This document shows, piece after piece, positions 142 through 10,361 of a stretch of DNA of 10,361 bases. Below the pieces are notes generated by a model. It saw nothing but the letters and a program-made list of their open reading frames with translations. It did no database searches and was not told the DNA's origin. Both the position numbers and the translations under genes were made by a program. Where the stretch lies: positions 1 to 10,361 of the forward strand of contig JABUUR010000019.1 in NCBI GenBank assembly GCA_021443065.1, in the 5' to 3' direction. Position 1 is the first letter of the stretch. Each line of letters begins with the position of its first letter. Source of the DNA: Fibrobacter sp. (GTDB lineage Bacteria > Fibrobacterota > Fibrobacteria > Fibrobacterales > Fibrobacteraceae).

Positions 142-1965
142 TTATTTGGCTTCGTCCTGGAAGGAAATGGATATTTCGTCTTCCAGTTTTTCGCCGTTAC
201 CCTTGATGGAGCGCATGGCCTGGGTGTCGCTGATCTTTTTTGCCTCGGCCATTTCGATGGCGGCGGCCTCGTAGTCCGCCTCGGTAACCCATTCCGGTTT
301 CCAGACGACCACCTGGTTGCGGCCTCCTTCCTTGCCCTGGTACAGGGCCTTGTCCGCCATTTGAATGCTGCGGTCGGCGCCTAGCCTGGGGTCGAAGCGG
401 GCTACGCCCAAGGTGACGGTGACGTTTATGGTGTAGCCTGCGTAATGGACCGACATTGTGGAGATTTTTCGGCGGAAACGTTCCGCCACCACCTCTGCGC
501 CGTCCAGGTCCGTTTCCGGCAACAGCGTCAGGAACTCTTCGCCGCCGTAGCGGGCAAAGACATCGTACTTGCGCAAAAGGCTGCGGATAGTCTGGGCAAC
601 GGATTTCAGCACAACGTCGCCGCAGGCGTGGCCGTAGGTGTCGTTGATGGACTTGAAGTGGTCGATGTCGATGAATATGAAGCAGAACGGTTTCTGTGTG
701 CGCTGGCAGCGCCCGATTTCGTTGGCCACGGTCTTGTTCATGTCCCGACGGTTGGGGAGCCCCGTCAGTTCGTCCGTCCTTGAAATAAGGTCCAGTTTCT
801 TGTTGGCTTCTTCCAGTTCCATGGTGCGGTCTTGGACTTCCTGCTCCAGCATGTTGCGGTGGCTTTCCAACTCCTTCATCTGGCGTTGTATGGTGCTGTG
901 CATGACGTTGAACGCCCTGGACAGAGTTCCGATTTCGTCTTTGCTGTGGCCCACCTGGATTTGCTCGATGTCGATGTTTCCGTCGCTAATCTGGCGGATG
1001 TGGTTGGTGAGGCGGTTCAGGGGAAGCCCAAGTTTAAGGAACATCCAGGCGGCAATGGCCAATATGATCAGGAGGGCCGCGATCAATATGGCTATACTGC
1101 TCTGCTTGATGGATGTGGCCAGTTCGTCGATTTCGCCCTTGGACTGGAATGCGAATACCCCGAAGTCGTAGTTGGAGTCGTACATGTAGTTGACCAGGTA
1201 GCGGTTCTTGTCCGTGAGTTTTACGAACTGGGGTTCCTTTGTCTCGAAGTTCCTGGGGTCGATTTTGTCCAAGCCCAGTTCCGAAATCTTGTGGGTTCCC
1301 GTGAGCCACTGCTTTAGGTCCGGGTGGTAAAGAATTTCGCCCTGGGAGTTGACCGCCACCAGAAAACCGTTCTTGCCGATCTTGTAGTCGGCGAAATTCC
1401 TCCACAGCCTGCGGAGGGAGAACGTCGCCACAAGGCTTCCGTCGCCGGTAGCTCTGTTGGAAATGTTGATCCCGAATATCCTTTCCGGGGCTGCATCGTC
1501 GTTGGTTCTAAACCACGGGGTGATGTAGGGACGGTGGGGGGTGATTCTGGAAAAATCGACGGGGTACTGGGTTTCCTTGGGTATACCGACCATGGAATTG
1601 TCGCAAAGAAGTTGCCCCTGCCTGTCGTAAATGGAAATGCCCTCGCCAGAAATGAAAAGGGTAGATATGTTGTAACTTTTCAGGTAACTGGCGGCGATGG
1701 TCGGGTCCATGCTCTGTATTTCGGAGGTCTTTGCCAAAAGGGAAAGACGGTCGCCGAATTGCTTCATCTCGTTGGTTGCGGTGGCGGTAATCTGGCTCAA
1801 CTGGGCGGCGTTGTTGTTGAAACTCCACTCCAGCATAAGCTGGGTCTGCTTCTGGGTGTAGATGTACACTCCGGTAGATACCACGAGGGGCATGGCTATG
1901 GTCAAGATAAGTATGGTCTTGACGATGATGCTTCGGGAGAAATTAACAAAGGCGGAGTCTTTCAT
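142..1965 (-). CDS. Membrane diguanylate cyclase: periplasmic sensor, HAMP, GGDEF
   Basis: This 607-residue inner-membrane protein should make cyclic di-GMP from two GTP. A transmembrane helix lies near residues 13-36, then a periplasmic region of about 250 residues resembling a Cache-type sensor (not firmly identified). A second helix spans about 289-311, with a HAMP-like linker (312-365) and a coiled coil (365-395). The GGDEF domain covers about 396-556: TDELTGLPNRR (397-407), the metal-binding FIDIDHFKSIND stretch (431-442) and active-site GGEEF (474-478). RKYD at 465-468, five residues before GGEEF, matches the RxxD inhibitory I-site, so product feedback is likely. There is no EAL domain. 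An acidic 50-residue tail follows. The start lies 35 bases after the stop of the upstream solute-binding-protein gene. No clear Shine-Dalgarno is visible, but a TATAAT-like minus-strand box at 1989-1994 could be a weak internal promoter. The signal sensed is unknown. Confidence 0.93.
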   Translation of the reverse strand: MKDSAFVNFSRSIIVKTILILTIAMPLVVSTGVYIYTQKQTQLMLEWSFNNNAAQLSQITATATNEMKQFGDRLSLLAKTSEIQSMDPTIAASYLKSYNISTLFISGEGISIYDRQGQLLCDNSMVGIPKETQYPVDFSRITPHRPYITPWFRTNDDAAPERIFGINISNRATGDGSLVATFSLRRLWRNFADYKIGKNGFLVAVNSQGEILYHPDLKQWLTGTHKISELGLDKIDPRNFETKEPQFVKLTDKNRYLVNYMYDSNYDFGVFAFQSKGEIDELATSIKQSSIAILIAALLIILAIAAWMFLKLGLPLNRLTNHIRQISDGNIDIEQIQVGHSKDEIGTLSRAFNVMHSTIQRQMKELESHRNMLEQEVQDRTMELEEANKKLDLISRTDELTGLPNRRDMNKTVANEIGRCQRTQKPFCFIFIDIDHFKSINDTYGHACGDVVLKSVAQTIRSLLRKYDVFARYGGEEFLTLLPETDLDGAEVVAERFRRKISTMSVHYAGYTINVTVTLGVARFDPRLGADRSIQMADKALYQGKEGGRNQVVVWKPEWVTEADYEAAAIEMAEAKKISDTQAMRSIKGNGEKLEDEISISFQDEAK

Positions 1966-2000
1966 GGTCTACCGAGGATTTTTGTTTGATTATAGCCTGA

Positions 2001-3530
2001 TTATTGTTTGCGCTTTTTGCGGAAGTTGAAAAGGAACCCGAGAATTACCATGAAGGCAAAAACGAATGGTGCCCTGGAAAGGTTGCTGCGGACCACCTCG
2101 TCCTTGTCTCCCGAGGTGTCGCTATTGGCCTTTGTCGCGATGTTTGCATGGATCTTTTCGTCGAAAATCCTTTGCCACAGGGCCTTGAATTCTGCGGCGG
2201 TCATGATGTTGGTGGACGGGTAGTTCAGCACCTTGTTGATTTCTACGGTGTACTGCCTGAAAATTTCGTAGAGTTTTTCTTCGGAGTAGAGGGACTGGAT
2301 TTCCATCATCTCCCAGACGGAACTGAACATGGATACAAGCAACTGCTCCAGGGTGCCCCATTCGGGAATGGTGGGGTAGGTGTTGCCCGACTCAAGGACC
2401 TTGACCAGCTGGTTGTAGTCTTCGTCCTTGGCCCATTTGGCCAGTACTTTTTTAGATGAAGGAAGCAGCCCGATTTGGCGGGTGTAGACGTTCTGGTTTT
2501 CGTCATTGACCAAGAAAAGCAACAGTTCCATGGCTTCGGGGCGGTTGTTGCCTGCCGGAATGGCAAGGTTGCTGCCTCCGATAAAACTGACACTGCCGGT
2601 GGAACCCTGTGGAATGGGCAGAACCACCACGCTGTCGGTGCCAATCCGGGAGTTGGAAAGCCCGCCTACGGTTCCGTCAAAGCGGGTCTGCATCACGATT
2701 TCGGAAGTATTGATGATGAATGCCAGTTCCCCGTTGTTGAACTGCTGGGCGACTTGGGCGGTGTTGGTCTGTAGAACCTCGGGCTGCACCAGGGAGTCGA
2801 TTACAAAATGCAGGTAGGCGGCGATACCCAGGATGGTTTCTTCGGAAAGGATGTCTGCACGCCACTTGCCGTTTTCGTCTTTCTTGATGAAAGATCCCCC
2901 GTTGCTCCAGACCCAGGGGGCGAAGTTGTGGGGAATGTTCCAGTCGCTTTTGCCGGGAAAGGCGTAACCATGAATCTTGGTGCCGTCTTCCAGAGTTTCG
3001 CTGGCCCCTTCGATTTTTTTTATGGCATCTGCGAAACCCCGGTAGGTGGAAACGGATTCCTTGGTAATCCCATGCTCCTTGAGTATGCGCTTGTTGCCCA
3101 GAAGGGAACGGACGTCGATAAACCAGGGAACGGAATAAATGGTGCTGTCACCGTCGATGTGGGTGGTGTTCCAGCTTGCCGGGACAAAACGTCCGGGTTT
3201 GATTTCCTTGATCCAGGGGTTCAGGGGCTTCAGTTCGTGACGGGAGGCGAAGTAGGGCACCCAGGTGGTTCCCAACTGTAGAATGTCGGGGGCTTCCTGC
3301 TTGCCTTCCAGGGCCAGGGATATGCGGTTCCAGGCTTCGCCCCAGTCCAGGACCTGGACCGTGGTGGGAATGCCGGTCTTTTTGGTGAAAAGGTCCAGCC
3401 GTTGTTCCAGGGTTTCTTGGGGAGAGGCTCCGTTGGGCATGATCCAAACGGTCATGGGCTTTGTTGCCGCCAAAGATACCGTTGCGGCGATGGCGACAGC
3501 CATGACGGCGACTTTACAATTTCCCGACAT
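2001..3530 (-). CDS. Extracellular solute-binding protein, family 1, with C-terminal membrane anchor
   Basis: This 509-residue protein resembles the carbohydrate-type family 1 solute-binding proteins of ABC importers. Family-typical stretches are PDILQLGTTWVPYFASRHEL (81-100), followed by KPLNPW, and YSVPWFIDVRSLLGNKRIL (132-150). Residues 1-22 form a Sec signal peptide without a lipobox. A hydrophobic segment at about 487-503 is followed by RKKRKQ, which would hold the binding domain in the inner membrane facing the periplasm. Most family members are free or lipid-anchored, so this tail is odd. The ATG at 3530 is preferred because GAGGAG sits six bases upstream; a TTG one codon earlier is possible. 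No permease or ATPase gene is nearby. The next gene is a membrane diguanylate cyclase, so the protein may present a bound ligand to that sensor instead of to a transporter. The substrate cannot be told from the sequence. Confidence 0.9.
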   Translation of the reverse strand: MSGNCKVAVMAVAIAATVSLAATKPMTVWIMPNGASPQETLEQRLDLFTKKTGIPTTVQVLDWGEAWNRISLALEGKQEAPDILQLGTTWVPYFASRHELKPLNPWIKEIKPGRFVPASWNTTHIDGDSTIYSVPWFIDVRSLLGNKRILKEHGITKESVSTYRGFADAIKKIEGASETLEDGTKIHGYAFPGKSDWNIPHNFAPWVWSNGGSFIKKDENGKWRADILSEETILGIAAYLHFVIDSLVQPEVLQTNTAQVAQQFNNGELAFIINTSEIVMQTRFDGTVGGLSNSRIGTDSVVVLPIPQGSTGSVSFIGGSNLAIPAGNNRPEAMELLLFLVNDENQNVYTRQIGLLPSSKKVLAKWAKDEDYNQLVKVLESGNTYPTIPEWGTLEQLLVSMFSSVWEMMEIQSLYSEEKLYEIFRQYTVEINKVLNYPSTNIMTAAEFKALWQRIFDEKIHANIATKANSDTSGDKDEVVRSNLSRAPFVFAFMVILGFLFNFRKKRKQ

Positions 3531-3656
3531 CAAAAACTCCTCAAAAAAGCTTACTGATAAACTTCAAACAACCCGATTTTCTAATTTAGCAAAAAAAAGT
3601 AAAACAAAGACCAAAAAGTCCTAACAAATGCCAACACATAACAACTGGGAGGCTCC

Positions 3657-4754: not shown

Positions 4755-5480
4755 ATGAAGATTGTTTTGGGTAAAAACCTGGAAAAAGGCGCAAGAATCT
4801 TCTTGAACGTGGTGGCCCTGGTGGTCATGACGTGTTTTTGCGGTTGCGTGGAAGACGATGTGACACGGGGCAACAAGGCCCTGCAAATCGGGGACTACGA
4901 ACGCGCCGTAGAAAACTTCAACAAGGCTCTGGACCAGGACCCCGCCCATCGGGATGCCCGCTATGGCCTTGCCCTTTCCTATTACGCCATCGCCGAAAGC
5001 GAAGAAAAAATGAATTTTTCCTCCTTTGAAAAATGGCAGCGTGCTTCCCGGGAGTTCGAGATTTTGTCCAAGGTGGACCGCAGCGGAAAGATCGACGCGA
5101 ACTACTCCACCTGCCTGTTCTACCTTGCCCGTGCAATGATGCAGAGGGGCAACAGCAACGTGATTCCCGTGCTGGACAAGTCCATCGGTCTTGATAGCCT
5201 GAACTTTTTCAGTTACAACCTGAAGGCCCTGCTTTTGGCTGGCCAGGGCCGTACCGAAGATGCCAAGAACATATTTGTGTACGTGGTGACCAAGGAGCCT
5301 AAGTTCGGTTCGGCCTACTTGAACCTGGGCAACATTTACTGGGGCGAAGGCGATGTGGAATCGGCCTGGGACATCTGGTCCATGGGCCATAATGTGCTGC
5401 CCCAGGACAGGGCGCTGGAGCATTGGACCAAGGTTGCCGAGGATTCCCTCAAGGTAAAGTTTCTCTCGGAAGGCCTATGA
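4755..5480 (+). CDS. TPR-repeat lipoprotein
   Basis: The 241-residue product has a basic N-terminus and a hydrophobic helix (about 14-30). This ends in FCGC, a poor but usable lipobox that would lipidate Cys31. The rest is helical repeat. One clear TPR is at about 35-68, with GDYERAVENFNKALDQDP at its core. A less regular helical part with long insertions covers 69-150. Two further TPRs are at about 153-186 and 187-220. TPR proteins are protein-binding scaffolds, and a lipid-anchored periplasmic one could sense or assemble envelope components. It is the first gene of an operon; its last four bases overlap the kinase start (ATGA), which implies translational coupling. The Shine-Dalgarno is poor (GGAAG only one base before the ATG). 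The partner and exact role are unknown; a function upstream of the kinase is inferred from gene order. Confidence 0.85.
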   Translation: MKIVLGKNLEKGARIFLNVVALVVMTCFCGCVEDDVTRGNKALQIGDYERAVENFNKALDQDPAHRDARYGLALSYYAIAESEEKMNFSSFEKWQRASREFEILSKVDRSGKIDANYSTCLFYLARAMMQRGNSNVIPVLDKSIGLDSLNFFSYNLKALLLAGQGRTEDAKNIFVYVVTKEPKFGSAYLNLGNIYWGEGDVESAWDIWSMGHNVLPQDRALEHWTKVAEDSLKVKFLSEGL

Positions 5481-6676
5481 ATCCCGCTCCTTTAGATTCC
5501 CCGTCTCTGCTTGACAAGGTTGAGCATTGCCATCTGCTCCATTCCGGCGGCGAAGGGGACGTGTACAGGGTTTCCATTGCTCAAAAGGACTTTGTATTAA
5601 AGTGGTACAGGCCGGGATGCACCTTCGACGATTCGGTCCTTGAGGCTGTCGCAAAGTCCAGGGACGAAGGACATTTCCGGCTTCGAGAACATGGAGTACG
5701 CAGGGCCGGCGAAAATGCGACGCCATACCTTGTCTACGACTACATCGAGGGCGTTTCTTCGGACAAGATCCAGGGAATGCCCCTGCCTGTGGCCCTCTAT
5801 GCCTTGCGCCGTCTTGCCTCCTCACTGGGCGACCTGAGAAAGTGCGGCGTCTCCCATGGGGACTTGTCTCCTTCCAATGTTGTGTTTACGGTGGTGGAGT
5901 CCAACAGTTCCATGGACCTGCAGCCTGTGGCAATCGATTTTGGCATAGTGGGGCCGGGGGCCTTGGCTTACGCGGCTCCCGAAAGGTTCCAGGGGGCGGC
6001 CCCCTCCGAAAAAAGCGACATGTTCGGTTTGGGACTGTTGCTGTACCGCTGGATTGTCGGGGTGGACCTGATTGTTGCACGGGACTTCGAGGAGTTCGCC
6101 TCCAGAAGTTCCACTTTGACAGGTTTAGGAATTGCTGAAACGCTGTACGTGAAAGACTATTTTTCCGCCCAGGAAATAAGTGCGTTGGAACCTCTGTGGA
6201 ACGGCATGCTGGCCGCCGATCCGGAAAACCGCTTTGAAGATTTCGACGAACTGGACGAAAATTTGGAGATTGCGCTGAACAAGGTTTCCGGGGGTGAGAT
6301 TCTTCTTTCGAATATGATCCAGGGCTTTGTTTCGCAACTGGAAATCCGAAAAGCGGGAGAAAAAGTCCCGACGGGTGAAAAGTGTGATTTGCCTTATGCG
6401 GTTTTGAAACCCTCCGGCAAAATCAGCCCTCGCAAAATCTTTGCATTTGCGGTTTGTGTACTTATATTGTTGGTGGTAGCCCTGTGGCTTGTTTTTGGCA
6501 CGAAAAGTACCGACATCGACGCCACGGGGGCAATGCTATTGGAACAGTCCAGAAGCATGGATTTGGACTCTGCAAGGGAATCTCCCGAGGGAAAAGACCC
6601 TGCGGAAAACGTCCCTGTAGACGAAATCCTCGAGAATCTTCCGGTTCCGCCTTCTGGAAATCAAAGTCTTGAATGA
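5477..6676 (+). CDS. Membrane-anchored Hanks-type Ser/Thr protein kinase
   Basis: The 399-residue product has an N-terminal kinase domain and one C-terminal membrane helix (about 321-341), followed by an acidic, proline-containing periplasmic tail of about 58 residues. Visible kinase motifs are the glycine-rich loop SGGEGDVY (23-30), K42 in FVLK, catalytic loop HGDLSPSN (127-134), DFG (154-156), APE (167-169) and the DMFGLGLLLY helix (181-190). The catalytic Lys, Asp129, Asn134 and the DFG Asp are all present, so activity is likely. HGD replaces the usual HRD, and only about ten residues separate DFG from APE, so the normal phosphorylated activation loop is missing. The ATG at 5477 is chosen over a longer upstream reading because it has GGAAGG three bases before it and overlaps the TPR stop codon. 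The gene overlaps the sigma54 activator by four bases, making that protein a natural substrate candidate. The tail may touch the TPR lipoprotein. Confidence 0.9.
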   Translation: MNPAPLDSPSLLDKVEHCHLLHSGGEGDVYRVSIAQKDFVLKWYRPGCTFDDSVLEAVAKSRDEGHFRLREHGVRRAGENATPYLVYDYIEGVSSDKIQGMPLPVALYALRRLASSLGDLRKCGVSHGDLSPSNVVFTVVESNSSMDLQPVAIDFGIVGPGALAYAAPERFQGAAPSEKSDMFGLGLLLYRWIVGVDLIVARDFEEFASRSSTLTGLGIAETLYVKDYFSAQEISALEPLWNGMLAADPENRFEDFDELDENLEIALNKVSGGEILLSNMIQGFVSQLEIRKAGEKVPTGEKCDLPYAVLKPSGKISPRKIFAFAVCVLILLVVALWLVFGTKSTDIDATGAMLLEQSRSMDLDSARESPEGKDPAENVPVDEILENLPVPPSGNQSLE

Positions 6677-8139
6677 GGTCGCTCTTGAAAACTGAATCTA
6701 TGGTCGCCACCGAAAAGATGCTGGAAGTGGTAAAGACGCTTCTGGACGAAGACCAGCCGGAAACCTTGTTCCCGAAGATTCTGGAGGTTGCCAGGAGTGT
6801 GCTTCGTGCAGACGCCGCCGTGCTTGACGTTTCCAGGGAAAATCCGCTGCACCTGAGCAACCCGGAGCAGGTGGCCATTTCCATTTCGGCGGTAAGGCAG
6901 GCCAAGTCCGAAAACAGGGCTGTCATCTGGAACCAGGTGGACGACGATTCCGTGGACCTTTCCAAGTCCATTGTGCAGAACCAGTTGACAAGCATCATGG
7001 TTTCGCCCTTCAGGACGACGGATTCGGAAACCGGCTACCTGTACTTGCAGCGGGCCGCCCGTGAGGAACCTTTTACCGCCGAAGATGTGGAACTTTTCGA
7101 TTCCTTCGTGGCTGTATGCGAAAAATTCGCCATTGCCGTGGACGACCGCCTTAGGGACAAGCGGTCGCTGGACGTGTTGAAAAACGTGGTCCGCAGGGAT
7201 GGCGTGGTGTATTCTTCTGCGGTCATGGCGGACCTGATCGCCCTGGCCGACAAACTTGCCCCCCTGCCCATGCCCGTGATTATCCGGGGAGAAACCGGTA
7301 CCGGCAAGGAGGTAATCGCAAAGTACATCCACAGGCGAAGCCCCCGTGCCGACAAACCCTTCATTGCCGTAAATTGCGGGGCCATTCCGGAGAACCTCAT
7401 GGAATCCTTGCTGTTTGGGCATGCCAAGGGCTCTTTTACAGGCGCCATCGAAAACCGCAAGGGCTTTTTCGAGGAGGCCGACGGCGGAACGATTTTCCTG
7501 GACGAAATCGGTGAACTGCCCATGAACATGCAGGTGAAACTTTTGCGGGTACTGCAGGAAAAGCACATTACCCGGGTGGGGGACAACCGGGAGATTCCCG
7601 TGAACGTGAGGGTCATATCGGCAACCCATGTGGACCTGGAAGATGCGGTCAAGGAAAAGCGATTTAGGGAGGACCTGTATTTTAGACTGCAGGTGATGCC
7701 CTTGTCGCTGCCGCCCTTGAGGGAACGGGGGCAGGACGTTGTGCTTTTGGCGGAAGAATTCCTGACCCGGTACGGTGCCGAATACGGCCGCGGAAAATAC
7801 CACATGAGCCGCAATACGGAAAAGGCGCTGCTGGGTTATCATTGGCCGGGCAACGTCCGCGAACTGGAAAACAAGATCCAGAAGGCGCTGGTCCTTGCGG
7901 TACACGGGGTGATCCAGCCCCAGGACCTGGGTTTGGGAAACGTCCAGAACGAGGCCAAGGAATCGCCCAGGACCTTGAAGGAAGCCCGTGAGGCTGTGGA
8001 ACGCGATGTCATCGGCCGCGCCCTGAGGGACAGCAACGCCAATCTGACCCTGGCGGCTACGATCTTGGGCATAGACCGCAAGGTGCTCCGCGAAATCATG
8101 GAACGGCTTGACATGAAAAAGGAAGACTTTAAAAAATAA
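6673..8139 (+). CDS. Sigma54-dependent transcriptional activator (GAF, AAA+, Fis-type HTH)
   Basis: This 488-residue cytoplasmic regulator uses ATP hydrolysis to open promoters held by sigma54 RNA polymerase. An N-terminal GAF-like domain (about 15-157) replaces the receiver domain found in NtrC-type response regulators. The AAA+ domain shows Walker A GETGTGKE (206-213), the sigma54-contacting loop GSFTGA (253-258, a variant of GAFTGA that keeps the key Phe and Thr), Walker B GGTIFLDE (271-278), arginine-finger region RFREDLYFRL (330-339) and WPGNVREL (391-398). The C-terminal 40-50 residues form a Fis-type helix-turn-helix (about 440-480). Translation is probably coupled to the kinase through the ATGA overlap; Met10 (6700) is a weaker alternative start. 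No receiver or PAS domain is seen, so control may come from a ligand of the GAF domain, from the kinase, or both. The likely target is the sigma54 promoter 200 bases downstream. Confidence 0.95.
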   Translation: MRSLLKTESMVATEKMLEVVKTLLDEDQPETLFPKILEVARSVLRADAAVLDVSRENPLHLSNPEQVAISISAVRQAKSENRAVIWNQVDDDSVDLSKSIVQNQLTSIMVSPFRTTDSETGYLYLQRAAREEPFTAEDVELFDSFVAVCEKFAIAVDDRLRDKRSLDVLKNVVRRDGVVYSSAVMADLIALADKLAPLPMPVIIRGETGTGKEVIAKYIHRRSPRADKPFIAVNCGAIPENLMESLLFGHAKGSFTGAIENRKGFFEEADGGTIFLDEIGELPMNMQVKLLRVLQEKHITRVGDNREIPVNVRVISATHVDLEDAVKEKRFREDLYFRLQVMPLSLPPLRERGQDVVLLAEEFLTRYGAEYGRGKYHMSRNTEKALLGYHWPGNVRELENKIQKALVLAVHGVIQPQDLGLGNVQNEAKESPRTLKEAREAVERDVIGRALRDSNANLTLAATILGIDRKVLREIMERLDMKKEDFKK

Positions 8140-8213
8140 CGGGAATAAAAGAAAAGGAAATGGTCAATAAACTGCGAGGTACGCGCTGCTAAAAGTGGAC
8201 TAGGTGAATTTTT

Positions 8214-8259
8214 GGGATATTTTATCACATCGGAACTCAAGTTCCCGAAAAATATTCCC
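8214..8259. repeat. Nested inverted repeat downstream of the sigma54 activator gene
   Basis: GGGATATTTT (8214-8223) faces AAAAATATTCCC (8248-8259). Between them lies the inner inverted repeat GGAACT-CA-AGTTCC (8232-8245). As RNA this forms a long interrupted hairpin about 75 bases after the activator stop codon. It lacks an immediately following T-run, so it is not a classic terminator, although a TTTTT begins 12 bases later. It may protect the operon mRNA 3' end, or act as a distal protein-binding site for the sigma54 promoter. Confidence 0.5.
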
Positions 8260-8267
8260 TTCAGGAG

Positions 8268-8303
8268 TCGGTTTTTATTTATATTGAATAAATAAATAAC
8301 CGA
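8268..8303. repeat. AT-rich imperfect palindrome upstream of the sigma54 promoter
   Basis: TCGGTTTTTATTTAT (8268-8282) is the inverted copy, with one bulged base, of ATAAATAAATAACCGA (8288-8303), separated by five bases. It adjoins the activator-site candidate at 8305. It could be a terminator-like hairpin without a T tail, or an AT-rich bending site of the kind used with sigma54 promoters. No IHF consensus was checked. Confidence 0.5.
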
Positions 8304-8304
8304 A

Positions 8305-8336
8305 ATTAGGCAAATATCGCCTAATGGATCGCCTAA
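8305..8336. promoter_or_regulatory. Candidate upstream activator-binding sites (TTAGGC half-sites)
   Basis: ATTAGGC (8305-8311) and GCCTAAT (8319-8325) form a perfect 7-base inverted repeat with a 7-base spacer. A third half-site repeats as ATCGCCTAA at 8316-8324 and again at 8328-8336, 12 bases apart. Dyads of this size bind Fis-type helix-turn-helix dimers of sigma54 activators. The dyad centre is only about 57 bases before the predicted transcription start, closer than the 80-150 bases common for such sites. The activator encoded just upstream is the obvious candidate to bind here. Confidence 0.6.
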
Positions 8337-8344
8337 ACGGATAG

Positions 8345-8361
8345 TTGGCACGGAATTTGCA
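8345..8361 (+). promoter_or_regulatory. Sigma54 (RpoN) -24/-12 promoter
   Basis: TTGGCACG (8345-8352), four bases, then TTGCA (8357-8361) matches the sigma54 consensus TTGGCACG-N4-TTGCA at every conserved position. The GG (8347-8348) and GC (8359-8360) doublets are separated by ten bases as required. Counting 12 bases from the -12 C gives a transcription start near 8372, immediately before the ATG at 8373. The promoter would drive the secreted-protein and beta-barrel genes. Confidence 0.9.
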
Positions 8362-8372
8362 AAACCCAAGGC

Positions 8373-8801
8373 ATGAAAGCGAAAATGAGAAAAATAGGTT
8401 TCATATCGATTTTCTTGATGATGTCGGCAACTGCTTTTGCCGGCGAGCCTTCGATGCGTCCGGAATCCTCTATCCCGACCCCTGCCGCAAAGTCCGAGGT
8501 TTCCCAGGAAACCCCGACCCTAGGTGCAAAGGAAAGCGAAGATTGGAAGAAACTCCGTGAAGAACGTCGCGCGGCCCGTGAACAGATATTGTCCGACCTG
8601 CGTTCCAGTTCCGCTGCCGAAAAACAGTCCATTCGCCAGAATGTAACGAAGGTTCAACCTCGTCCGAACTTCGAAGGGGAAATCCCGAAAAACGCTCGCG
8701 AACGTAAACCAGCCTTCGAATGGCCGGAAGCGCCCAAGATGCCTACGCGAGATTTCCCTCCCGGTCCTCATCCTTTTGAAGGGGATCGCAACAATCATTA
8801 A
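8373..8801 (+). CDS. Small secreted charged/proline-rich protein
   Basis: The 142-residue product is not recognised as a known family. Residues 1-23 form a Sec signal peptide with a likely cut after AFA. The mature part begins with a Ser/Thr/Pro-rich stretch (25-50), then a strongly charged, probably helical region (55-95, DWKKLREERRAAREQILSDL), then a proline-rich tail (96-137). It has no cysteine and no membrane segment after the signal, so it should be periplasmic or exported and partly disordered. It is the first gene behind the sigma54 promoter, and its stop overlaps the next start (TAATG), pointing to a joint function with the beta-barrel protein. The start is uncertain. ATG 8373 falls on the predicted transcription start with no room for a Shine-Dalgarno. 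The in-frame ATG at 8385, which leaves the signal peptide intact, is an alternative. Confidence 0.75.
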   Translation: MKAKMRKIGFISIFLMMSATAFAGEPSMRPESSIPTPAAKSEVSQETPTLGAKESEDWKKLREERRAAREQILSDLRSSSAAEKQSIRQNVTKVQPRPNFEGEIPKNARERKPAFEWPEAPKMPTRDFPPGPHPFEGDRNNH

Positions 8802-10078
8802 TGCGACGGCTTGCAGTCGTGCTGTTTTTGCTTGCGTCGTTCCTATGGGCTGAAACCCAGGAGGAGGCGTATTTTAGGGCGATGAAGGCTGAGGAAGCCG
8901 GCGATATTTCCCTTGCGGTAAAGGCCTTTGAAGATGCGGTGGCCTTGCCCGGCCCCTATACGGACGAACTTAAGGGAATTCTGCAAAGTTATTACGAGGC
9001 GTTGGGTATCAAGGGGCAATCTCCGGAAAAGCCCTGGTCTTTTCGTTTTTTAGGGGATGCCGGGTTTAGCGGACTTCGATACGATGAATTTTCCGACGGT
9101 AACGGGTTCAACGAGTATGGCGGAGATGCGTTCCTTTCGCTGACCCCCTTTCTGGATTACACTTTGGGAAATTGGCTCCATTCCTTTGGGCTGGAGGTTT
9201 CGGGCGACTGGTTCTTGATGAACGACAACATGCCCGCGCTGGATACCAGCGACTGGATTTTGTCCGTGGGGGCGGATTATTCCCTGATCGGGACTTCTGT
9301 AATGGCCAACGTGGGCATCAACTTGAACCTTGCGGAGCGTGAAGACCCGTCCCTGTCGTTCTTTGGATGGGGGCAGAAGGAATTTTACCGGGGCGGCAAG
9401 AATCGTTATGGGGCGGCCCTGTGGGCCTACTACAAGACCAACGGCCCCCTGTCCTCGGCGTTGTACGCCTCCTGGAATCGTTCTGCGGCCAACGGCTGGA
9501 ACGGTTCTTTGTATGTGGGAGGGCGTTTCGAGGCGGACTCGGTATTGGACTACAAGAAATATGTGTCGGACTACGTGGACGCGGTGACGGAGTCCGTGAA
9601 CAATGCCTACGACAGCGGCTTGGGACTTATGGATGCCTACGGCAACTGCTGGGCAACCTACGGTTCGGCATGTATGGAATTGACCGAGGAACAGGTGGAC
9701 TCCCTTTACTGGGAAAAATTGGTCGGTGATGCGACGAAGACTGTATCTGTGCCGTCCACACGTTCCTACGGGTTGTGGCTGGGGCCTGTGTTGCGTTTGA
9801 AAATTTCGTACAAGTTCAGGACGAAAATAACCTTGGAGGCCAAGGTCAATCTTTTTTACGGGTTTGTTCTTGACGGACCCGATGCAGATTACGAAAAGAT
9901 CCAGAAGTTCTCCGGGTCCTGGGGTGCGATGATTTACTGGAATCCCAATTTCCTGCGGTTTTACCTGGGGGTGGAGCAGAACTACCATTACTACCGCCTG
10001 CCCGCGTACTATCGGGACGTATACCCCGAAGGCAACCTGCTGAGCCAGTTGAAAGCCGGCGTGAAGTGGGAAATTTAA
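8801..10078 (+). CDS. Predicted outer-membrane beta-barrel protein with N-terminal TPR-like segment
   Basis: The 425-residue product has a signal peptide cut after FLWA (residue 17). A short helical segment (20-69) resembles one TPR plus a helix. From about residue 80 to the end, alternating hydrophobic/polar strands rich in Tyr, Trp and Gly are typical of outer-membrane barrels, for example SYGLWLGPVLRLKISYKF and the closing strand LKAGVKWEI. The last residue is Ile rather than the common Phe. The layout, periplasmic helical repeat followed by a barrel, recalls two-part transport or assembly barrels such as the SLAM type, but the similarity is structural only and no family is assigned. The gene starts inside the stop codon of the small secreted protein (TAATG), so it is likely cotranslated with it under the sigma54 promoter. 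A role in exporting or displaying that protein is inferred. Confidence 0.8.
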   Translation: MRRLAVVLFLLASFLWAETQEEAYFRAMKAEEAGDISLAVKAFEDAVALPGPYTDELKGILQSYYEALGIKGQSPEKPWSFRFLGDAGFSGLRYDEFSDGNGFNEYGGDAFLSLTPFLDYTLGNWLHSFGLEVSGDWFLMNDNMPALDTSDWILSVGADYSLIGTSVMANVGINLNLAEREDPSLSFFGWGQKEFYRGGKNRYGAALWAYYKTNGPLSSALYASWNRSAANGWNGSLYVGGRFEADSVLDYKKYVSDYVDAVTESVNNAYDSGLGLMDAYGNCWATYGSACMELTEEQVDSLYWEKLVGDATKTVSVPSTRSYGLWLGPVLRLKISYKFRTKITLEAKVNLFYGFVLDGPDADYEKIQKFSGSWGAMIYWNPNFLRFYLGVEQNYHYYRLPAYYRDVYPEGNLLSQLKAGVKWEI

Positions 10079-10102
10079 AAAGTATAATGACGCAAGGGGC
10101 AT

Positions 10103-10250
10103 ATGCGTCCACGTAGTGGATGAAGCATTTCTTGGTGCTTTAGCACCTAGAAAGACTTGTCCAAGTATTGGACAGTTCTCACTAAGCGCTAAGTGTTCAT
10201 TAGCCTTGGAACCCCTCGAAAAGGTCTCACGATGTTCGACTTTTCGAAGG
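10103..10250. repeat. Cluster of five short inverted repeats in the 3' intergenic region
   Basis: Five hairpins or near-palindromes follow one another in this non-coding stretch. They are TCCAC-GTA-GTGGA (10108-10120) inside an outer ATGC/GCAT pair, and GGTGCT-TT-AGCACC (10134-10147) extended by TTTCT/AGAAA. The others are GTCCAA-GTA-TTGGAC (10159-10173), the near-palindrome CACTAAGCGCTAAGTG (10180-10195), and CGAAAAG/CTTTTCG (10217-10246). None has a T-run that would make it a clear terminator. No open reading frame on either strand looks real here. Confidence 0.6.
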
Positions 10251-10281
10251 TGCGGATTGTGAATGCGTTATGGCAGGGGAG

Positions 10282-10361
10282 ATCCCGGGTCAAGCCCGGG
10301 ATGACAACGCAATGGAGCTCAGGGTGACAGTGTAAAACGTCTCTCTCTAACATGTCATCCC
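10282..10361. repeat. CCCGGG-type intergenic repeat and a second, inverted partial match at the window edge
   Basis: ATCCCGGG-TCAAG-CCCGGGAT (10282-10302) is a perfect inverted repeat with 8-base arms. Its right flank GGGATGAC (10298-10305) recurs inverted as GTCATCCC at 10354-10361, where the window ends. The spacing suggests a pair of oppositely oriented copies of a short dispersed repeat, or one larger palindromic element of about 80 bases. Repeats of this look are scattered between genes in several bacterial genomes. Copy number in this genome cannot be seen from the window. Confidence 0.65.

Follow-up and report, generated by a model that had tools for sequence, protein, structure and literature searches.

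The window examined here is the whole of a 10,361-nucleotide stretch (contig JABUUR010000019.1 of assembly GCA_021443065.1) from a 2.2-Mb, 70%-complete genome bin, which was treated as Fibrobacter, a main cellulose degrader of herbivore guts. It encodes a TPR lipoprotein, a Hanks-type kinase, a sigma54 activator (EBP) and, behind a sigma54 promoter, a small secreted protein (DIS) and an outer-membrane barrel protein (OMP), with the following features:

4755..5480, plus strand: TPR lipoprotein, 241 residues, matching TPR_16 (E 5e-15)
5477..6676, plus strand: Hanks-type kinase, 399 residues, with a kinase domain at about 10-290, one predicted transmembrane helix at about 318-340 and then a tail
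6673..8139, plus strand: sigma54 activator EBP, 488 residues, with a GAF domain, an AAA+ domain bearing GETGTGKE and GSFTGA, and a Fis-type HTH
8231..8247, no strand: candidate activator site formed by the dyad CGGAAC-TCAA-GTTCCCG, which lies 115 bp 5' of the sigma54 box
8306..8324, no strand: second dyad TTAGGC-AAATATC-GCCTAA, just upstream of the sigma54 promoter
8346..8361, plus strand: sigma54 promoter TGGCACGGAATTTGCA, with 0 mismatches to the consensus
8373..8801, plus strand: DIS, small secreted protein, its ATG 11 nucleotides after the sigma54 box
8801..10078, plus strand: OMP, with a signal peptide, TPR-like helices, a 14-strand outer-membrane barrel and a helical insertion at 251-314

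Architecture and inheritance of the locus

All five genes occur in the order TPR-kinase-EBP-DIS-OMP at 48/56 loci (55 fetched loci and the window), which shows the five-gene set noted in an earlier sequence-only reading of the window to be a conserved unit; one locus is interrupted by a contig end. L085, which stops within the kinase gene, was among the rows excluded from counts. The five-gene arrangement is real and not a chance assembly. In a search of 100 genomes, the window's own included, kinase matches with E <1e-40 were confined to the same genus, and the best match among the 39 genomes of other genera reached only E 1.6e-9. A single-sequence kinase search of wider genome contigs recovered no relatives, and the corresponding search with an alignment recovered at least 80 matches. 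The named close relatives among the matches listed are mostly Fibrobacter bins, several of them from herbivore gut or faeces, together with Fibrobacter intestinalis ATCC 43854 and the bin Fibrobacteres bacterium CG2_30_45_31.

The pattern of EBP and DIS across 61 genomes of the genus, with presence called at E up to 1e-150 for EBP and up to 1e-4 for DIS, is identical for the two proteins: both are found in 54 genomes and neither in 7 (G009, G013, G015, G023, G031, G041 and G048). The absence in G013 is a contig break, and in the other six the kinase is missing together with EBP and DIS. As G009 is 99% complete, the cluster has probably been truly lost there. The sequence-only reading had named, as evidence against itself, the occurrence of the downstream pair without the regulators in most relatives; for DIS this was seen in 0/61 genomes. 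OMP is a looser member of the set than DIS. It is present in 52/61 genomes, has no match in G022 and G060, and is matched on another contig in G002, G016, G020, G049 and G058. Of the sigma54-driven surface pair envisaged earlier, the co-inheritance of DIS with EBP stands, whereas OMP is only loosely attached and the promoter within the cluster is gone in one clade (see below).

Kinase and EBP both retain their catalytic residues, which counts in favor of the module proposed below. Cys31 of the TPR lipoprotein is invariant in 22/22 aligned sequences, and we propose this protein as a periplasm-side sensor or adaptor. The kinase displays the protein kinase fold and the typical Hanks residues, namely the Lys of beta3, the catalytic Asp and Asn, D-x-G and APE (K42, D129, N134, D154, G156 and A167-P168-E169, invariant in 25/25 sequences), with the single sequence scoring 27.9 bits against the Pfam Pkinase cut-off of 31.7 (E 2e-6). 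Its tail, which is likely to be periplasmic, has conserved residues at D348, G351 and R359. The EBP matches Sigma54_activat with E 5e-72 and possesses the AAA+ domain, Walker A and a version of the GAFTGA loop in which Ser replaces the first Ala; this GSFTGA is unchanged in 54/54 rows of the alignment, and GETGTGKE is conserved in the same rows except for one position at 93% (L077, with a two-piece match, is omitted from both this count and the EBP tree). Its HTH_8 match scores 22.9 bits against a cut-off of 22, in keeping with a Fis-type HTH. No receiver domain is present among its Pfam matches, consistent with the receiver-less activator described earlier. DIS has no Pfam match; its mature N-terminus reads PES-x-x-PTPAE and is followed by a helix-like DWxxxRxERxxARxxIL segment and a Pro-rich tail, with 12 invariant columns in an alignment of 20 homologues. 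OMP likewise gives no hit to Pfam up to E 0.1, the profile of Slam (surface lipoprotein assembly modulator) included, and there is no Slam among the 50 matches listed in each of two fold lists.

On balance, we favor the view that these genes constitute a self-contained envelope-signaling module of Fibrobacter, in which the TPR lipoprotein and kinase act through EBP and sigma54 on DIS and, where adjacent, OMP. Some features of the locus weigh against it. In 7/56 loci only four genes are present, OMP not being beside DIS in the fetched stretch; the loci are mutually related, and their counts are therefore not independent; the kinase has HGD in place of HRD (G128 is invariant in 25/25 sequences) and falls outside the RD subclass; and neither a receiver nor an FHA domain ties EBP to the kinase. 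In an alternative that we judge unlikely, if still a serious one, the operon combines two functions that do not depend on each other, that of the kinase and TPR lipoprotein and that of EBP and DIS, with the GAF domain of EBP sensing a small cytoplasmic ligand and the kinase having other substrates. Small-ligand sensing through a GAF domain is known from NifA and NorR, and EBP combines such a domain with the lack of any phospho-recognition domain. The kinase also diverges much faster than EBP, with identities of 34-62% versus 80-92% in the fetched loci and 31-35% versus 62-68% in the more distant L245-L249. Nevertheless, the joint loss of kinase, EBP and DIS in six genomes speaks against such independence, as does the TPR stop, which is part of ATGA, GTGA or TTGA, and could overlap a start, in 42/56 loci. 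Moreover, the TPR-kinase-EBP triad persists in L245-L249; here diverged DIS and OMP are found in L246 and L249, neither is seen in L247, and the contig ends inside EBP in L245 and L248.

Two further loci are of note with regard to the sampling. G001 carries two full clusters of different clades (L041 and L049), one of each promoter kind, and so either mixes two organisms in one bin or truly has a second copy. The 4.2-kb contig L218, assigned to a Clostridiales bin, encodes the kinase, EBP, DIS and OMP (47-84% identical), has the same sigma54 box, and is probably a mis-binned Fibrobacter contig.

The sigma54 promoter of DIS and its apparent relocation

RpoN was detected in 59/61 genomes of the genus, with none found in the window's own incomplete bin or in G016. 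Consensus sigma54 sites number 651 in these genomes, versus 36 for the reversed pattern, which amounts to about ten sites per genome. A sigma54 box lies 5' of DIS in 41/55 loci having a DIS gene, and this, with the perfect match in the window, upholds the promoter identified in the sequence-only reading. The distance from box to ATG is 11 nucleotides in 37 of the 41, window included, and 12, 13, 33 and 43 in the remaining four; the same 11-nucleotide spacing recurs at a weak box before DIS in L246 and at a poor box in L249. Because the start codon lies only 11 nucleotides after the box, and with the C of the GC element counted as -12, the -24/-12 convention would place the first mRNA base on the A of the AUG or one base before it, such that the DIS mRNA should be leaderless. 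In general, mRNAs without a leader have been described in Leptospira and flavobacteria.

For comparison, control promoters were drawn from 59 of 64 fetched sigma54 loci (69 sites listed), after removal of DIS sites (L086, L102, L121 and L125) and a second-copy site (L147). Downstream open reading frames could be assigned at 55 of the 59 control sites, some at very short distances that are likely false starts, and none begins 10 to 13 nucleotides after the box. A search of the 61 genomes for a box followed at 11 nucleotides by ATG recovered 42 places, versus 0 with the reversed control; assigned by eye, 29 of these are DIS and 13 are not. The 11-nucleotide geometry is therefore not exclusive to DIS, an exclusivity that we had considered and rejected. 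Seven of the 13 non-DIS places (L280-L292 for all 13) head open frames of at least 248 codons, some of which were read as acetolactate synthase, DapF and PD-(D/E)XK-type proteins, and the genus may make leaderless sigma54 transcripts more widely. In L246, from a Fibrobacter bin with a diverged cluster, a third gene behind OMP (12469-12813), encoding a 105-residue secreted protein, has its own good sigma54 box with the 11-nucleotide spacing.

The box is missing at 14 loci, 13 of which form one clade (SH-aLRT 100 in a quick EBP tree) where DIS follows close behind EBP with a Shine-Dalgarno-like sequence. Exactly the 13 genomes of this clade, and none other of the 61, possess a second DIS gene elsewhere. 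It is preceded by a gene for a secreted Lys/Glu/Ala-rich protein in 12/13 (the thirteenth is cut), and a sigma54 box scoring 11 or 12 (of 12) stands ahead of this pair at 11/11 readable loci, L194 and L196 ending before the upstream region. In the doubtful, most specific version of the mechanism given below, the sigma54 output of this clade has shifted to the duplicated locus, where DIS has a long helical partner; such a shift would tie the circuit to DIS itself, whatever its position. The fourteenth locus without a site, L080, weighs against the favored view, having neither a sigma54 box nor a second DIS.

In the two genomes read gene by gene, G058 and G020, the moved OMP adjoins a gene for a Lys/Glu/Ala-rich secreted protein. 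At L091 (3384-4971) and L094 (1575-3425) the two genes are convergent, and this neighbor resembles in make-up the partner of the second DIS copies. The idea that moved OMP genes keep their own sigma54 site was discarded, as L090-L095 show no same-strand upstream site scoring 11 or 12 (of 12), and the two sites of such score, in L092 and L095, are on the opposite strand.

A further reading makes DIS and OMP ordinary proteins of the surface, whose transcription comes mainly from a sigma70-type promoter or from the regulator genes by read-through. It is compatible with the 13 site-less loci just described and, in the window, with a sigma70-like match (10 of 12) that ends at 8137, just 5' of DIS, and with the lack of a terminator-like site within 8139-8346; other transcription of DIS is for these last two reasons possible, which counts against the favored view. 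However, 7 promoter-like matches were seen where 3.5 were expected, so a single such match says little, and the retention of the box in most loci, its exact spacing in 37 of them and the sigma54 sites at the second DIS locus speak against it. We consider this explanation very improbable.

Upstream dyads and the assignment of EBP to DIS

The promoters were divided by their distance from the EBP stop into long-gap (at least 100 bp behind EBP, n=21) and short-gap (less, n=20; 1-62 bp from stop to box) classes. The 11 second-copy promoters alone were used to build a 34-mer matrix, and its best match falls at -124..-116 in 10/21 long-gap, 2/20 short-gap and 3/59 other sigma54 promoters. The dyad GG[AG]A-N4-9-TCC at -130..-88 occurs in 11/21 long-gap promoters (window included), 10/11 second-copy promoters, 1/20 short-gap promoters and 3/59 others. 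In three other windows of position the pattern is seen in 0 of the long-gap and second-copy promoters, in 1, 0 and 0 of the 20 short-gap promoters, and in 4, 8 and 2 of the 59 controls. These dyad counts are descriptive, because pattern and range were chosen after viewing the alignments. Dyads similar to that at 8306..8324 were seen by eye in L031, L061, L078 and L081, with no control.

Several facts here weigh against the favored view. Eleven of the 21 long-gap promoters lack the matrix position and 10/21 lack the dyad, among them L070, L073, L074 and L077; the window has the dyad, but there the matrix finds only a weak best match at another position; and common descent may be why the second-copy promoters share the dyad. 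What speaks most against a universal operator is that the element is missing in short-gap loci, and with 1/20 of these and 11/21 of the long-gap loci showing it, a -120 operator as a universal feature was rejected.

The absence of room for the dyad at 20 site-bearing loci, only 1 of which shows it, also favors a further alternative, that the DIS promoter is driven by another activator, of a nitrogen or heat-shock branch, and that the EBP of the cluster acts elsewhere. The window's genome (G000) has other activators, with 6 Sigma54_activat matches, 4 of them strong, and a genome of the genus has about ten sigma54 sites. Yet DIS was not found without the cluster EBP in the 61 genomes, the matrix position is rare at other sigma54 promoters, and G009 and G048, which lack EBP, keep sites before chaperone-like and nitrogen-type genes. 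We regard another activator at DIS as improbable, and retain the assignment of the cluster EBP. The persistence of sites before DnaK-, HtpG-, GroES- or GrpE-like genes in these two EBP-less genomes likewise does not favor the cluster EBP as a heat-shock activator, a role that was considered and set aside.

Those sites are an observation in their own right. At L099-L158 (from G003, G009, G014, G030, G048 and G059) perfect sigma54 boxes precede genes whose products, judged by the N-termini, resemble DnaK, HtpG, GroES, GrpE, a small heat-shock protein, a Clp-type protein and a 270-residue sigma factor, and also GlnB, GltB, GlnA and others. In Fibrobacter, sigma54 thus appears to govern both heat shock and nitrogen. 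A 2025 survey includes chaperones in its analysis of the sigma54 regulon and nowhere names Fibrobacter (PMC12316311).

Known systems and a possible mechanism

The closest described analogue that we found is the PrsK/PrsR/PrsT set, the regulators of PEP-CTERM/exosortase systems (PMC1569441, PMC9850573). As presented there, it similarly ties a membrane kinase, a sigma54 activator and a TPR lipoprotein to sigma54 promoters of secreted surface proteins. PrsR and PrsT are the top-ranked NCBIfam matches of EBP (E 5e-108) and the TPR protein (E 3e-8), at scores below the curated cut-offs (361.7 of 502.6 bits and 31.9 of 312.2 bits). PrsK, however, belongs to the histidine kinases and PrsR carries a receiver domain, in contrast to the Hanks kinase and GAF-bearing EBP of Fibrobacter; the distance from box to start in PEP-CTERM genes averages 71 nucleotides with a minimum of 23, versus 11 for the DIS cluster; and exosortase (PF09721) was found in 0/31 genomes of the genus and in 1/14 control genomes. 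With no receiver, no exosortase and scores under the curated cut-offs, membership in the PEP-CTERM/Prs system was rejected.

Other resemblances are more partial. The kinase shares its fold, catalytic residues, one predicted transmembrane helix and an extracytoplasmic tail with PknB, PknA and StkP, but differs in its HGD motif, the lack of a PASTA match and the linked sigma54 activator. OMP is a 14-strand barrel like CymA and OmpG, at 5-9% identity, and unlike them has N-terminal TPR-like helices and a helical insertion. ZraP of ZraSR and the CpxP-type proteins are small secreted Arg/Glu-rich periplasmic feedback proteins controlled by the adjoining sensor, and ZraR uses sigma54. DIS could be compared to them as a small secreted Arg/Glu-rich protein beside a sensor system, differing in having no Pfam match. 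The myxobacterial precedent for kinase-EBP pairs cited in the sequence-only reading was not corroborated, in that none of the listed titles or abstract openings shows such pairs. At the kinase matches of Myxococcus and Corallococcus (L250, L251, L253, L255 and L257), the DNA covered yields no counterpart of the remaining four proteins; in L269, from an uncultured Myxococcales bin, a sigma54 activator lies beside a distant kinase.

Hanks-type kinases and sigma54 activators are each widespread, but in the titles, abstracts and some passages of the literature covered, no description was found of a compact conserved unit of TPR lipoprotein, Hanks kinase, receiver-less activator and one secreted output. 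The F. succinogenes genome paper has a single mention of sigma54, a two-component sigma54-like regulator near a cellulase. Elsewhere, sigma54 has been proposed to control the bacterial exterior (PMC3162934), and a flavobacterial study ties it to protein quality control, envelope stress and exported proteins (PMC9723704).

These comparisons and the gene order allow a mechanism to be proposed for the module. The state of the periplasm or outer membrane would be read by the TPR lipoprotein together with the kinase's putative periplasmic tail, and the kinase might then signal to EBP, the most probable routes being Ser/Thr phosphorylation and a phospho-controlled contact with the GAF part of EBP; both the sensing and the phosphorylation are suggested by gene order. 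Conserved Ser/Thr residues of EBP ahead of its AAA+ domain are candidate phosphosites. EBP would in turn drive sigma54 transcription of DIS and, where adjacent, of OMP, a step for which comparative genomics argues through the inheritance as a unit, the conserved box, the promoter swap and the partly shared dyad; in many loci it may activate DIS by binding the dyad near -120. DIS rather than OMP would be the constant output. As no genome was seen to have DIS but not the regulators, the protein most likely serves the sensor as a dedicated partner in the periplasm or as a feedback ligand, accompanied by a 14-strand outer-membrane pore protein. The most specific version, in which the -12 box sets the start of the mRNA at the AUG to give a leaderless message, the secreted DIS returns to bind the TPR lipoprotein or the kinase tail, and the path runs from Hanks kinase to EBP, is put forward as a doubtful elaboration. 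The cluster provides Fibrobacter with a candidate envelope-response regulon, comprising a promoter that can be tested, a candidate operator and two uncharacterized output families.

The surroundings of the cluster are less uniform. Upstream neighbors are less constant than the cluster itself, with matches above 80 bits in the 56 loci to DUF3332 (36), SBP (35), DGC (34) and NUDIX (13). In the window, positions 142-3533 encode on the minus strand a Cache-HAMP-GGDEF cyclase and a solute-binding protein, neighbors in 34 and 35 of the 56 loci respectively, which may be linked in function. Rfam and tRNA searches gave no matches. On the other side, 3' of OMP, the stretch 10080-10361 contains several inverted repeats, one of the ATCCCGGG type, and may be dispersed repeat DNA.

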